This document shows, one piece after another, positions 171 through 5,590 of a DNA stretch of 5,637 nucleotides (position 1 is the stretch's first letter; every line of letters starts with the position of its first letter). Below the pieces are notes generated by a model. The model did no database searches. It was not told the DNA's origin and was given only the letters and a program-made list of their open reading frames with translations. This DNA is from Prevotella sp. UBA7594 (GTDB lineage Bacteria; Bacteroidota; Bacteroidia; Bacteroidales; Bacteroidaceae), in the NCBI GenBank assembly GCA_002490315.1, contig DLKG01000011.1, positions 1 to 5,637 on the forward strand, given 5' to 3'. The position numbers were made by a program, and so were the translations under genes.

Positions 171-201
171 TTTGATAAATTAATAAATTTTCATAAATTT
201 G
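171..201 (+). promoter_or_regulatory. Candidate Bacteroidota-type promoter for the susC-susD operon
   Basis: A TTTG at 171-174 (-33 element) is followed after 19 bp by TAAATTTG at 194-201, an exact match to the TAnnTTTG -7 element used by the Bacteroidota primary sigma factor. Spacing and both elements agree with the known consensus. The start of transcription would fall a few bases after 201, roughly 206-212, giving a leader of about 400 nt to the susC ATG. The spacer is AT-rich and contains three ATAAATT words (175, 183 and 193). No equally good match was found closer to susC. The assignment is by motif only. Confidence 0.6.
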
Positions 202-389: not shown

Positions 390-478
390 TGAAAGCGGCT
401 CTTTAGCCTATCTAAAGTGCCACTTTAGCAAGCTTAAAGCGACGCTTTACAGCAGCTAAAGCGCCCCTTTAGCTAAAG
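390..478. repeat. Array of 22-bp dyad repeats with half-sites every 11 bp
   Basis: CTTTAG and CTAAAG alternate at an exact 11-bp step: CTTTAG 401, CTAAAG 412, CTTTAG 423, TTAAAG 434, CTTTAC 445, CTAAAG 456, CTTTAG 467. A degenerate TGAAAG lies one step earlier at 390, and a last CTAAAG at 473 breaks the step by a 5-bp deletion. The period is thus 22 bp, and each unit is an inverted repeat. Dyad centres fall at 398, 420, 442 and 464. The two best dyads are CTAAAGTG-C-CACTTTAG (412-428) and TAAAGCG-A-CGCTTTA (435-449). Between them a T:A pair is replaced by C:G on both arms, which is compensatory. The array could be a row of operator half-sites on one helix face or a run of hairpins in the susC leader. 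I do not recognise it as a named element. Confidence 0.8.
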
Positions 479-604: not shown

Positions 605-3600
605 ATGAACAAAAGACTAAAGATGCTTTTTGCAAGCCAGCTGCTCGCAGCGAGCACGGCGCTTGCCCAGTCGCAGTTTAGCGGAAAGGTTGTCTCAGCC
701 GACGACGGCGAGCCAGTGATTGGCGCCACCGTCCGCGTGGCAGGCACCGACGCTGCTGTCGTCACCGACATCGATGGCAATTTCGCCATTGCCGTTCCGG
801 CAGGCGGCAAGGAACTCAAGGTTTCGTACATCGGTATGGACGACAAGACTGTGCACATTCAGGGTAACCACATGACCATCAGCCTCACCCCCCAACGAGC
901 ACAGCCTCGACGAAGTGGTTGTTACGGGCTACGGCGTGACGCGCAAGGCGGCATTCACAGGCGCCGCCACCACCATCAACAAAGACCTCATGGACCACCG
1001 CAACGACGCCAACCCCATCAAGTCGCTTGAGGGCACCGTGCCCGGACTCCAACTCTCAACCACCTCCGGCCAGCCGGGCGCCCCACAAACCATCTTCATC
1101 CGTGGCCGCAACTCCGTCAACTCAGGCACGCAGCCGCTTTACGTCATCGACGGCATCCCCTTCAATGCCGACCCTGTCGGCGTGCATATGGACGAGGGCG
1201 TGACCATCTCGCCCCTCGCCAATCTCAATTCATCCGACATCGAGAGCATCACTGTCCTCAAGGACGCCACCGCCACGTCCATCTATGGCTCGCGCGCCGC
1301 CAACGGCGTCATCGTCATCACCACAAAGCGCGGCAGCAAGGGCAAGACAAAAGTGAACTTCACGGCGAAACTCGGCTGGGAGTCGTTGCCCTCCTACACC
1401 AACAACTATAAGCTCTGCAACGCCGAGCAGAATCTGGAGCTCGCCACCGAGGCGCTTCTCAACTCCTACAAGGAGCTTGGCGCCGCCTCCACATTCGGCT
1501 ACTACAACGAGGCTTATGAGCTCGGACTCTCCTACGACCAGCAGGGGGCCGAGGATTTCTACGACTTCTTCACGGGAGGTTGGCTCACGCAGTATCGCGA
1601 GTCGGGCAAGTCTACCGACTGGATGAAGGAAATCACGCGCAAGGGACTTATACAGGAGTATGGCTTCGACATCAACTCCGGCGCCAAAGACCCGTCCGCC
1701 CCAACCTTCTACCTCTCCTACAACTATCTCTCCAACGAGAGCTTCATGAAGGGAAAGGATCTCAAGCGCCACACGCTGCGCTTCAATCTCGATCAGCAGC
1801 CGAGCCGCCTCTTCAAGTATGGCATCAACACCAACTTCTCCTATTCCGTCATCAACAACGGAGCAGGCGGAGGATACTATAGCGACCCGCTCACACAGGT
1901 CTACATAATGAACCCCATGACGCCCGTCTACGATGCCAACGGCGACTGGAACTTCGACACTACGACAGGCTACAATCCTGTGGCTCTGCGCTCCAAGAAC
2001 GGCGACCAGGACAAGGCCACGCAGTATCAGGCCATCATTTCGCCCTACGTGCAAATCAACATCTTGCCTGAGCTTACCTGGATGACGAAGGGCGGACTCG
2101 ACCTCTACCAGGTGAAGGAGTTCGGCTACTGGTCGTTCCTCAACCCGCAGGGAGCCGCCATGAACGGTATGGGCGAGGAGAACACGAACACGCGCTCGCT
2201 GCTCACCATCACCAACACGCTCAACTACATCAAGTCGTTTGGCGACCACCATCTCAACGTACTCCTCGGACAGGAGGGACAGAAGACGCACATCGCACGC
2301 TCATACCTTGAGGGCACCAACTATCCCGTGCAGGACAAGACAGAGATAGGACTCACGTCCACACCGGCGGCTGCCGCAACGTACAAATACAATCTTGTCC
2401 TCGGCTCGTTCTTCTCCAACGTGCAGTACGACTACGACAACAAGTACTATCTCTCGGCTTCCTGGCGTACAGACGGTTCTTCGCGCTTCGGCAAGAACAA
2501 CCGCTGGGCTTCCTTCTGGTCGGTGGGCGGCAAGTACCGTCTCTCGTCAGAGAAATTCATGGAGCCAGTGCGCCCGTGGCTCAACGACCTCACCTTCCGC
2601 GCCAGCTACGGCACGACGGGCAATCAGGACGTGGGCGACCACACCAATGCCGACTATTACTCCTGGATTGTGGCTGAGGACACCTATAGCTACGGCTACA
2701 ACTACGCCGGACAGCCTGGAGCGCGCCATGAGCAGTTTGGCTCCTCCAACCTCAAGTGGGAGAAGACGGGCAAGTTCAACGTTGGCTTCGACGCCACGCT
2801 CTTCCAGCGCCTCTTCCTCACCTTCGACTATTACAACCACAAGACCACCGACATGGTGTTCGCCGTGCCCATCAGTATGATAACCGGCCTCTCGGAGTAC
2901 TACAAGAACATCGGCTCCCTCTCCAACAAGGGCATCGAGTTCTCCGTCGGAGTCAACATCTTGCAAAACCAGGACTGGTACTGGAATCTCACGCTCACAG
3001 GGTCGCACAACAAAAACAAGGTGCTGAAGCTCTCCACCGACGACCCGATTGAAACCTCCATCTCCATTACCGAGGCCGGGCGTCCGCTCTATCAATGGAA
3101 GATGAAGGAGTACGCCGGTGTCGACACGCAGACGGGTGAGGCGCTGTGGTACCTCAACGAGACTGGCAGCGAGACGACCAATAACTACAACAAGGCCGCC
3201 AAGCGCTATCTCGGCGACGCCAATCCTTCCTTCTTCGGCTCTCTGCAAAACACGCTGAAATGGAAAGGCATCGACTTCTCGTTCCAGTTCAACTACTCCC
3301 TCGGCGGCAAGATCTTCGGCAACAACCTCCGCTACGACGAGCAGATCGGCACCTCGTTCTACGAGAACTACACGCTCTACGTCTACAATAACCGCTGGCA
3401 GAAGCCAGGCGACGTCACCGACGTGCCGCGCCTCTCCACCGACGACGCCTACGCCAACAAGGCTTCCTCGCGCTTCCTCATGAGCCGCAACTATCTGAAG
3501 CTGCGCTCCATGTCGCTCGGCTATTCGCTGCCGAAGGCTTGGGTGAAGAAAGCAGGGCTCGACAACGCGCGCATCTTCGTCAATGCCGAGAACCTCTACA

Positions 3601-3719
3601 CGTGGACTGCCAGCGACTACCGCGGTTTCGACCCCTCTGGCGTCGGCGCCAATGGCAACCAGTGGTGGAACTATCCGCTCGCACGCTCCGTGGTGTTCGG
3701 AGTGCAGGTGGGACTGTGA
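605..3719 (+). CDS. SusC/RagA-family TonB-dependent outer-membrane transporter (frameshifted by one base)
   Basis: This is the outer-membrane beta-barrel of a SusCD pair, importing a ligand captured by its SusD partner at TonB expense. As written, the frame opened by ATG 605 leaves the SusC sequence in a six-C run at 888-893 and stops at 1030; the rest continues in another frame from there to 3719. Dropping one C restores a 1037-residue protein, typical for SusC. Restored domains: signal peptide about 1-21 (ends STALA, then QSQF); carboxypeptidase-regulatory-like domain about 25-96 (FSGKVVSADDGEPVIGATV, SYIGMDDKTV); the EVVVTGYG junction about 103-110; TonB plug to about 243 with SLEGTVPGLQ, IRGRNS, PLYVIDG, ESITVLKDAT and YGSRAANG; then barrel strands to a final ARSVVFGVQVGL, ending in L where F is usual. 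Tandem stops TGA TAA follow. The GTG at 915 is not a plausible start because it would remove the signal peptide and N-terminal domain. The disruption may be a sequencing error, a real mutation or recoding. The substrate is unknown. Confidence 0.93.
888..893 (+). other. Six-C run carrying the susC frameshift
   Basis: The bases around this run read ACC CCC CAA CGA in the upstream frame, which leads into nonsense and a TGA at 1028-1030. With five Cs the reading is ACC CCC AAC GAG CAC AGC CTC GAC GAA, that is TPNEHSLDE followed directly by VVVTGYG, the canonical junction between the N-terminal domain and the plug in SusC proteins. The extra base is therefore located to this run. It is a +1 insertion in a homopolymer, the commonest site of indel error and of slippage. 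Confidence 0.9.
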
Positions 3720-3789: not shown

Positions 3790-5256
3790 ATGAACAAATA
3801 CATAAAGAATATATCACTTGCTCTTGCTGTGGCGTTCGGGTTGTCGGCGTGCGACTTCGACCCCGAACTCACGCAGGACGTCAACACTTCCGATGCCTTC
3901 AAGAGCGTGCAGGACGTGAAGAACGGCACGGCAGGTGCCTATCAGGCGCTCGCCTATTATCCCTTCCTCGGCAACTATGCCGTAGCATTCGGCGACTTTG
4001 CCGGCGGACTCGCCACGGGCAGCGCCTCCTCCGGACATTTCTATTCCGTGTCCTACTGGTCGGTCAGCGACACCGACGAGGAGATGGAAGGCGTATGGCA
4101 GTATGGCTTCAAGGTCATCGACGCTGCCGTGCGCACCATTAACGGCTCCGACGCTCTCCTTGCAGCCGACCCGAACATGGATGATGACGACAAAGCCACC
4201 GTCTATTACAACGTTTCGCAATGCTACGCCCTCCGCGCCCTCGCGTACTTCACGCTCACGCAGTATTTCTGCTATCCCTACGCCAAGGGTGCCGACCAGA
4301 AAGGTCTACCTATCGTTAAGGATCAGCCTGTTGAGGCTTTTCAGACAATGGAGCGCGCCTCGCTCGGCGACACCTATCAGTTTATGCTCGACGACATCGC
4401 TGCCGCTCTCAACTACAACGAAAAGGCAGGGCAACCAGATCTTCAGTTCTTCTATCTGAACCGCGCCGCCATCTACGCCCTCAAGGCACGTGTATGTCTT
4501 TACATGGGCAAGTACGACGACGCTGAGGCTGCAGCCAAGCAGGCTATAAACCTCAAGGGAAAGGGCAGCGCCGACTATGCCGACCTCAATCCGTCTGACG
4601 ACGTGTATCTCTCGATGTGGGCGTCGCTCAGTCCGAGCGACGAGGACATCTTCACGCTCTCCAAAACGGTGGACGACAATCTCTCCGCCAACGCTCTCAA
4701 CACGCTCTGGGGCTCGTACTACGGTAAGGTGTCTGCCTACGGGCAGAGCTTCTTCAGCTCCACTGACGTCCGCGTGAAGCTCATAGGCGAGGTGGACGGC
4801 AACACGCCAGCCTCGAAGAAGTGGCAGGGCATAGAGTCGTCGCAGGCGACAAGCAACATCCCCGTCTTCCGCAAGTCGGAGATGGCGCTCATCATTGCCG
4901 AGTGTGAGGCACGCGCAGGAAACGTCAGTGAGGCGCAGAAGTATCTTGGCTACACCGCCAAGCGCGATTCCCAGTATGCCGCTGCCGACGGCACGTGTGA
5001 TCTCTCCAAGCTCCCGTCCGACAAAGACCAACTGCTCGACTTCATCTGGAAGGAGTCGACGCGCGAGTTCCTCGGTGAGGGCCACTTCCTATCGGAGGCT
5101 CGTCGCCTCGACAAGACCATCACCGTCATGAACGGCGCATGCACGACATTCCGTCCCGCCAACTTCGTATTCCCTATTCCTGCTGCCGAAATCAACGCAG
5201 GCTTCATGAAGGAGCAGAACACGGAATGGGAAAACGCACTCCCCGAACGCGATTGA
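3790..5256 (+). CDS. SusD/RagB-family surface lipoprotein, ligand-binding partner of the SusC-like transporter
   Basis: The 488-residue protein is the expected length for the SusD family and lies directly after its SusC partner, which is the standard order. It begins with a lipoprotein signal peptide: a Lys-containing N-region, a hydrophobic stretch, and the lipobox LSAC with the lipidated Cys at 21. The residues after Cys, DFDPE, are acidic, in keeping with the surface-export signal of Bacteroidota lipoproteins. The helical TPR-like scaffold is visible at about 125-165 (ALRALAYFTLTQYF), 189-209, 221-253 (ALKARVCLYMGKYDDAEAAA) and 358-386 (SEMALIIAECEARAGNVSEA). The C-terminal SusD signature follows: KESTREFLGEGHFLSEARR about 421-439, then FPIPAAEINAG about 461-471 and QN before the end. 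SusD proteins cap the SusC barrel and bind the incoming glycan or peptide. No frameshift or missing segment is seen. The ligand cannot be read from the sequence. Confidence 0.96.
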   Translation: MNKYIKNISLALAVAFGLSACDFDPELTQDVNTSDAFKSVQDVKNGTAGAYQALAYYPFLGNYAVAFGDFAGGLATGSASSGHFYSVSYWSVSDTDEEMEGVWQYGFKVIDAAVRTINGSDALLAADPNMDDDDKATVYYNVSQCYALRALAYFTLTQYFCYPYAKGADQKGLPIVKDQPVEAFQTMERASLGDTYQFMLDDIAAALNYNEKAGQPDLQFFYLNRAAIYALKARVCLYMGKYDDAEAAAKQAINLKGKGSADYADLNPSDDVYLSMWASLSPSDEDIFTLSKTVDDNLSANALNTLWGSYYGKVSAYGQSFFSSTDVRVKLIGEVDGNTPASKKWQGIESSQATSNIPVFRKSEMALIIAECEARAGNVSEAQKYLGYTAKRDSQYAAADGTCDLSKLPSDKDQLLDFIWKESTREFLGEGHFLSEARRLDKTITVMNGACTTFRPANFVFPIPAAEINAGFMKEQNTEWENALPERD

Positions 5257-5264
5257 TTCTCCAG

Positions 5265-5320
5265 TTTGGAATTTTGAATTAGGAATTTTGAATTAGGAGT
5301 TTGGAATTTTGAATTAGGAG
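5265..5320. repeat. Heptad microrepeat array (TTWKGAA x 8)
   Basis: Starting nine bases after the susD stop, the sequence divides without a gap into eight 7-bp units: TTTGGAA, TTTTGAA, TTAGGAA, TTTTGAA, TTAGGAG, TTTGGAA, TTTTGAA, TTAGGAG. The same heptads recur between the GC cores of the 74-bp repeats, for example three GAATTTT units starting at 5438, 5445 and 5452. The period of 7 is not a multiple of 3 and the units are low in complexity, so this is not coding sequence. Confidence 0.8.
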
Positions 5321-5532
5321 TTATTCTCGGGCTTCGCCCTGCGATTAGGAATTGTCCAATTAGGAATTAGGAATTTTGAATTTTGAATTAGGAGTTATTC
5401 TCGGGCTTCGCCCTGCGATTAGGAATTATCCAGTTTTGAATTTTGAATTTTGAATTTTGAATTAGGAGTTATTCTCGGGCTTCGCCCTGCGATTAGGAAT
5501 TATCCAGTTTGGAATTTTGAATTTTGAGTTTT
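5311..5532. repeat. Three tandem copies of a 74-bp repeat with a GC hairpin core
   Basis: The copies start at 5311, 5385 and 5459, exactly 74 bp apart. The first 43 bp are identical in all three (5311-5353, 5385-5427, 5459-5501). The remaining 31 bp differ at 2 positions between copies 2 and 3 and at 6 positions between copies 1 and 2. Each core holds a small stem-loop GGGC-TTC-GCCC (5329-5339, 5403-5413, 5477-5487) flanked by ATTAGGA-type words. The variable part is made of heptads. The perfect cores suggest recent duplication or gene conversion, or constraint. The hairpins lack U-tracts, so they are poor intrinsic terminators, though they could protect the mRNA 3' end. Confidence 0.9.
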
Positions 5533-5590
5533 GAATTTGGAATTAGAAATTTTGAATTATGGGCTTCGTTCCGGCAAAATAACTGGGAGA

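Follow-up and report, generated by a model that had tools for sequence, protein, structure and literature searches.

What kind of element is the row of short inverted repeats that lies in front of a susC-like gene in Prevotella sp. UBA7594, and does it serve that gene? The window (the whole 5,637-nucleotide stretch of DNA that was analysed) carried a susC-like gene, a susD-like gene, and a CTTTA/TAAAG array inside the predicted susC mRNA leader. A sequence-only reading had described this array as a cooperative multi-dimer operator along one helix face or a comb of alternative hairpins. The features of the window were as follows.

171 to 201, forward strand: promoter-like TTTG (171 to 174) plus TAAATTTG (194 to 201), of the Bacteroidetes promoter type.
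391 to 405, no strand: degenerate outer dyad GAAAG-CGGCT-CTTTA (sequence).
401 to 471, no strand: exact core array of seven alternating CTTTA/TAAAG pentamers (sequence, TRF, shuffles).
413 to 427, no strand: 15-bp dyad TAAAG-TGCCA-CTTTA, centre obeying YRNYR.
435 to 449, no strand: 15-bp dyad TAAAG-CGACG-CTTTA, centre obeying YRNYR.
457 to 471, no strand: 15-bp dyad TAAAG-CGCCC-CTTTA, YRNYR broken at the last centre base.
473 to 478, no strand: off-lattice half-site CTAAAG immediately 3' of CTTTAG.
605 to 3719, forward strand: susC-like gene in two open pieces, CarboxypepD_reg_2 (605 to 1030) and TonB plug (915 to 3719).
3790 to 5256, forward strand: susD-like gene (SusD_RagB, SusD-like_3).

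The window array was real and lay far above chance. The seven exact pentamers (CTTTA starting at 401, 423, 445, and 467; TAAAG starting at 413, 435, and 457) alternated on an N7/N5 lattice with a 22-bp period, and TRF called a 22-bp repeat at 392 to 473. Seven was the length of the longest alternating N7/N5 run of any word in the window, versus two (194 times) or three (six times) in 200 dinucleotide shuffles; CTTTAGN5CTAAAG with up to two mismatches matched three times in the window versus 0.14 expected, and three or more such matches were found in none of 200 shuffles. The finer description given earlier stood in part: (i) of eight half-sites said to lie at an exact 11-bp step, those from 401 to 467 did so, while that at 390 read TGAAAG, two mismatches away from CTAAAG; (ii) the hexamers TTAAAG at 434 and CTTTAC at 445 were each one mismatch off; (iii) the ninth alternating half-site, CTAAAG at 473 to 478, was off the lattice, 6 bp past 467; and (iv) since the 11-bp step exceeds the 10.5-bp pitch of B-DNA, the one helix face shifts progressively along the array. 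Just 3' of the array, a perfect palindrome with GTTAAC-GGGC-GTTAAC arms was located at 488 to 503.

The sequence comparison was applied to the window and the closest ortholog found, the susCD locus of genome G840, which shared 79% DNA identity with it over 4,682 columns. G840 also had the TAAATTTG box, 275 nt before the ortholog start codon (the box-to-start leader of the window being 403 nt), but its 275-nt leader contained neither CTTTA nor TAAAG, and the array was absent. Since the promoter-like box was kept and the array was not, the array may be specific to the window lineage, so far as this single comparison reaches, the alternative being its loss in G840. The best matches of a SusD protein search were one at 99%, one at 85%, and then about 90 at 81 to 82%, those named among the about 90 being Prevotella sp.; SusD matched at the set threshold in 3 of 398 genomes around a Prevotella genome (G840 at 82%, the other two at 48%), and a SusD-based scan of genome contigs gave no match. 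The window susC frame was broken near a C run at 880 to 930, where the G840 ortholog was one open frame of 1037 codons; the break may be genuine or may stem from faulty assembly. A different repeat was found 3' of susD, at 5265 to 5560, where 3.5 copies of a 74-bp unit containing CTCGGGCTTCGCCCTGCG occurred along with the heptamers TTTTGAA and AATTAGG.

When the genome collection was scanned with a pattern of four half-sites (20 fixed bases), at least 120 stretches matched, with 112 under Bacteroidales titles and 8 others among the matches listed, and the same scan of the viral collection gave four. The 8 non-Bacteroidota and 4 viral loci, of which five and three, respectively, lay inside ORFs by rough calls, were left out of the dyad, spacer, head, fold, and neighbour analyses. 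Eleven genomes picked for having such loci showed forward counts of 1 to 56 (110 in total, the 56 being those of G006), and the backwards pattern occurred in none of them, G006 included. An even sample of the order had a four-half-site match in 1 of 393 genomes, solely G001, the sample centre. When three half-sites were used, 15 of the 60 genomes of the G006 group matched (three by one match each), with 0 to 153 matches per genome and three single backwards-control matches at other places in these 60 genomes, while 4 of 100 genomes near G840 matched, G840 itself once. These proportions and widely differing counts made the CTTTA array patchy among genomes and volatile in copy count, and the window array is best read as a member of a lineage-specific, minisatellite-like intergenic class in Bacteroidaceae. 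The Prevotella genome G008 (L168 to L180) contained a dispersed element of about 200 bp with mixed GTTTA/CTTTA half-sites, several copies of which had similar GCGAAA...TTTACA stretches near both ends.

Rough ORF calls placed the 112 listed loci between tandem genes (56), convergent genes (28), or divergent genes (10), or at contig edges (18); divergent placement thus accounted for 10 of 94 arrays in this rough count. Among 26 arrays from G006 (codon-usage gene model) and G432 (rough ORF calls), excluding one G006 array called inside an ORF and one G432 locus having no left neighbour, none lay between divergent genes, whereas such genes flanked 21 of the 106 G006 gaps that were 100 bp or longer (p 0.013). 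Ten of 11 G006 arrays were intergenic, the remaining one being that called inside an ORF. Neighbour-gene function showed no theme among 107 neighbour proteins (from the 148 of 206 references listed), with 177 families, the largest of four members. The proposed preference for sites upstream of susC was not borne out: a SusC-like start followed within 1 kb at only 2 of the 112 listed Bacteroidales loci (L015, about 217 bp, and L059, about 700 bp), and any SusC or SusD match to the window proteins, up to 8 kb away, was present at 9 of the 112.

The array geometry was strict. In 362,861 bp of array-holding contigs of G006, TAAAG was followed by CTTTA at N5 in 41 cases (0 to 2 at other spacings up to 13), and CTTTA was followed by TAAAG at N7 in 48 cases (0 to 1 at other spacings up to 16), with echoes at +22 bp. 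Across the 112 listed loci, the N5 centre conformed to YRNYR in 256 of 333 dyads, and the N7 spacer took 273 distinct forms among 367; N7 similarity was 52% within an array versus 29% between arrays, and between loci N7 appeared nearly random. A 22-position GC profile displayed AT troughs 11 bp apart, and the alternation ended in two same-direction half-sites 11 bp apart at 36 of the 112 listed loci. Many arrays were preceded by a head, described from 39 of 45 candidate ends of this kind (six, whose N6 was not T-rich, were left out): outside the array it was conserved at spaced single positions to about -29 and had a sharp outer edge, its start near -29 being a loosely conserved (G)(T/C)AA. 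Of the 39 headed elements, 26 had this 29-bp head and either 9 or 11 half-sites. The window had no head, its best head-PWM score being 3.3 bits versus 21.6 to 55.0 for the heads themselves. At seven loci (L002, L011, L020, L024, L032, L044, and L094), the array started less than about 50 nt after an ORF of about 70 aa ending in ...LGEP, presumably DUF4248-like; several Bacteroides species had this ORF plus array in orthologous positions, and a Prevotella locus had it too.

Orthologous loci were also fetched with two flanking genes as queries, array presence being not required. The CTTTA array was present in 9 of 26 genomes at the first locus and in 4 of the 30 loci fetched at the second (61 genomes matched). 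In all 9 arrays of the first locus, the first exact half-site lay 14 to 17 nt past the stop codon. Eight of these 9 were parsed for a column count (L190 was left out): 0 of 25 half-site columns, 3 of 10 N5 columns, and 14 of 14 N7 columns varied, while one codon phase of the adjoining gene varied in 72% of columns. N7 was thus saturated while the half-sites were fixed, and the statement that half-sites and spacing are kept while spacers drift was borne out both here and in G006. The main loci had been fetched by demanding exact half-sites, which the flanking-gene fetch avoids and the eight compared arrays do not, so the conservation of half-sites is partly built in. Exact inversions of N7 were seen between orthologous arrays (e.g., GACTGGA versus TCCAGTC), and possible empty sites within the loci were too diverged for an insertion point to be defined. 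In the same positions, other species carried either hairpin-rich repeats of a different kind or hairpins resembling terminators. After the same genes, seven loci (L195, L220, L225, L227, L230, L233, and L237) displayed GAAAGTT heptads, ACAGAGT words, and AGTTGTACAACT or AGGTATATACCT palindromes with a 22- to 23-bp period.

The same geometry was carried by another word. GTTTC-N7-GAAAC-N5-GTTTC matched 91, 83, 85, and 107 times in G001, G404, G432, and G442, respectively; 11 of 15 genomes tested had matches, and in six of these the count was 22 to 107, against 0 to 1 backwards-control matches per genome. In the G006 group, GTTTC was found in 23 of 60 genomes, versus 15 of 60 for CTTTA and 29 of 60 for either word, and the backwards control gave 12 matches in total, 7 of them in G417 (23 true matches). 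GTTTC was absent from the CTTTA-rich genomes G006, G418, G430, and G007, while G002 had both words. Among laboratory Bacteroides, B. xylanisolvens XB1A is rich in GTTTC and B. rodentium carries CTTTA. The GTTTC arrays had a period of 22 to 23 bp, and 19 array loci were listed in G432; 17 loci of G432 showed GAAAC followed by GTTTC at N5 in 60 cases, and GTTTC followed by GAAAC at N7 in 57 and N8 in 16. Some N7 spacers (AAGGCAT, ACACCGA, and ATATAGG) recurred across loci and genomes in the GTTTC arrays of G432 and G442. A third class, found in two of nine genomes tested, had TCCGTA at 11-bp direct steps and then in inverse orientation, and it did not have the dyad; it occurred at L204, L205, and L238 to L249 of G906 and G443, with 49 and 41 matches per genome.

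We tentatively prefer to read the window array as a member of this class that was acquired by the susC leader after the split from the closest ortholog and forms a candidate row of dimer sites. The acquisition itself is likely, and side-by-side sites along the array would likely be occupied by dimers of a putative DNA-binding protein. The N5-centred 15-bp dyad TAAAG-YRNYR-CTTTA would be the rigid unit, because the GTTTC loci of G432 kept N5 constant but allowed a linker of 8 in place of 7, and each dyad would take one dimer. The arrays may have grown and become even by 22-bp duplication, as the greater N7 likeness within arrays suggests, together with template switching between inverted repeats. 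Their gene-end position suggests that they might end or insulate transcription units or contribute to chromosome structure, and any effect on susC would be incidental. Three lines of evidence counted for DNA binding: the word specificity, the centre rule YRNYR, and the head, whose conservation at spaced positions with a sharp edge is as expected of contacts of a trans-acting factor. Of the original alternatives, a multi-dimer DNA site fits better than a hairpin comb, and the part that fell away is an operator role specific to susC.

Points against the dimer reading included the following: (i) no binder turned up, and the array neighbours were functionally mixed; (ii) 22-bp duplication and quasi-palindrome correction could partly produce half-site identity in the absence of selection, since the within-array N7 likeness and the N7 inversions indicate that mutational evening-out could mimic selection; (iii) the TCCGTA class does not share the dyad; (iv) given the different hairpin-rich repeats and terminator-like hairpins at orthologous spots, a structural role fits too; and (v) the rough ORF calls placed 10 of 94 arrays between divergent genes. 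A wider version of the dimer reading, which we regard as possible and rather doubtful, would assume a Bacteroidaceae-wide putative protein family whose dimers tile gene-end arrays, the word having been switched by lineage (CTTTA, GTTTC, and perhaps more) at fixed geometry and the arrays rebuilt to match. If the geometry-constant, word-changing pattern does reflect binding, it would represent a system for organising the chromosome or ending transcripts that has gone unrecognised in Bacteroides and its relatives, and the array would be a ready bait for its protein.

Somewhat unlikely, and the strongest competitor of the dimer reading, is a selfish or neutral minisatellite, MITE-like or born by slippage, evened by template switching, and tolerated at gene ends with no host function. 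In its favour, match counts ranged from 0 to 153 among related genomes, and all but one of the 393 sampled genomes of the order lacked the four-half-site pattern; the within-array N7 likeness and exact N7 inversions point to duplication plus template switching, and Prevotella G008 has near-identical dispersed copies of a longer element. An intergenic 23-nt minisatellite MITE has already been described in BrickBuilt (PMC4596501). Against this, the 39 headed elements gave no target-site duplication signal (mean longest common word 3.97 versus 4.24 in shuffled sequence), and their head and tail ends differed, so that terminal repeats were not found in them; moreover, N7 was nearly random between loci while the half-sites and head positions were kept, which recent copying does not give. 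If the array were selfish DNA, it would be a clean natural record of how an inverted-repeat minisatellite originates, inverts, and spreads.

An RNA element, either a hairpin comb or a single long hairpin by which transcripts are ended or protected (e.g., a two-way terminator at convergent ends), seems improbable. Several observations spoke for it: ortholog regions with arrays folded strongly (mean z -4.8 for 13 regions versus -3.0 for 43 regions without), the window had a fold z of -2.4 at 381 to 510, where an array was present (9 of 26 orthologs) its first exact half-site followed closely on the stop codon, and hairpins occurred at the same spots in other species. Pooled complementarity also exceeded expectation (N5 pair 1-5, z 5.3; N7 pairs 2-6, z 3.9, and 3-5, z 3.6), and 14 of 103 arrays folded better than their spacer-swapped versions (z < -1.64) versus about 5 expected. 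However, swapping spacers between arrays had no effect on the mean fold energy (z -0.25 +- 0.27, n = 29; z -0.18 +- 0.16, n = 74), and within arrays there was no significant positive pairing (N7 pairs, z -2.0, 0.4, and 1.5; N5 pairs, z 1.2 and -2.5). The N5 that would be the loop was constant in G432, T runs of at least 5 were present in 2 of 13 array regions, and no Rfam match fell on any array examined; at the gathering score, the window had no match, and the three matches from 20 array loci (SRP RNA, tRNA, and TPP) did not overlap an array. The T:A to C:G change noted earlier between two window dyads was present (T418/A422 versus C440/G444), but across the 333 dyads of the 112 listed loci the coupling did not reach significance within arrays (MH odds ratio 1.37, z 0.9; permutation z 1.2), so the change is no evidence of pairing. 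A hairpin as the selected feature gained little support: the pooled N5 coupling (odds ratio 3.4) and the pooled N7 complementarity were positive but not significant within arrays, and the swaps had no effect on the mean energy. The spacers hence showed little sign of selection for pairing, while the pooled complementarity and the 14 better-folding arrays would allow a weak tendency.

There is only a small chance that the array is a site where a topoisomerase, e.g., gyrase, wraps DNA, in which case an 11-bp AT/GC rhythm over about 100 to 150 bp at transcription-unit ends would matter and the word would be irrelevant. The AT troughs 11 bp apart, the prevalence of headed elements with 9 or 11 half-sites and the 29-bp head (26 of 39), and the 11-, 22-, or 23-bp steps shared by several words agree with this. 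On the same side, the flanks of the E. coli gyrase motif have a 10.75-bp GC periodicity, and BIME-2 are strong gyrase sites (PMC6379681). Against it, a rhythm is less specific than the exact pentamers, the YRNYR rule, and the head seen here, and gyrase is, to our knowledge, universal, yet 392 of the 393 genomes sampled from the order lacked the CTTTA array.

Very improbable is the original reading as a susC-specific operator or leader attenuator, since the position within the predicted susC leader, the two listed loci where a SusC-like gene starts less than 1 kb past the array, and a TonB plug domain in 3 of 107 array-neighbour proteins are set against the absence of the array from the one closest ortholog, which keeps the promoter-like box, the SusC or SusD match of any sort at only 9 of 112 listed loci, and the rarity of arrays between divergent genes. 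Both observations that had been named in advance as speaking against it were made, i.e., the array was a generic intergenic, mostly gene-end repeat and was missing from an ortholog with a kept promoter, and the susC-specific reading is largely contradicted. Such arrays should not be read as operators of the adjoining downstream gene.

Regulation in SusCD leaders is of antisense-sRNA and ECF sigma/anti-sigma types; the long susC leader of the window resembles these systems, while the array, unlike them, shows no association with susC in related genomes. Comparison was also made with three kinds of DNA element. The E. coli gyrase sites and BIME-2 share with these arrays an AT/GC rhythm of roughly 11 bp that spans about 130 bp, and BIME-2 likewise lie between genes (PMC6379681), while the gyrase motif is degenerate and has no fixed pentamer, unlike these arrays (PMC6379681). 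REP/BIME are extragenic palindromic units present in many copies with regular spacing and alternating orientation (PMC2817692), all as here except that the REP length of 20 to 40 bp (PMC3733652) differs from the 15 bp of these dyads. The REP tag at the stem foot is GTAG or CGTC; headed elements have their loosely conserved (G)(T/C)AA near -29. REPs driven by RAYT were not supported: Y1_Tnp (the REP-associated tyrosine transposase) had matches in 12 of 60 genomes, including array-bearing G414 and G444, and none in the five CTTTA-richest genomes G418, G006, G430, G007, and G002.

BrickBuilt of Porphyromonas gingivalis is composed of 23-nt units, always intergenic, with 19 copies in ATCC 33277, a leader block, a partly conserved unit, and predicted stem loops, and 2 of the 19 copies lie between divergent genes as counted from Table 1 of its account (PMC4596501). 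It resembles these arrays in its tandem units, intergenic position, multiple copies (19, as against 19 array loci listed in G432), near-equal unit length (23 versus 22 to 23), leader block or head, partly conserved unit, and predicted stem loops. It differs in its 12-bp terminal inverted repeats like those of IS5 elements and in some target duplications (PMC4596501), neither of which was found here, and the part of the account available describes no alternating inverted N5/N7 pentamers (PMC4596501), the comparison being one of described features. No description of these arrays was found in the literature searched, most subscription papers being outside its reach, and the CTTTA/GTTTC inverted-pentamer arrays are apparently undescribed. 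BrickBuilt is the nearest published kind found, and REP/BIME is an architectural analogue; the arrays depart from the former in terminal repeats and target duplications and from the latter in the RAYT link.
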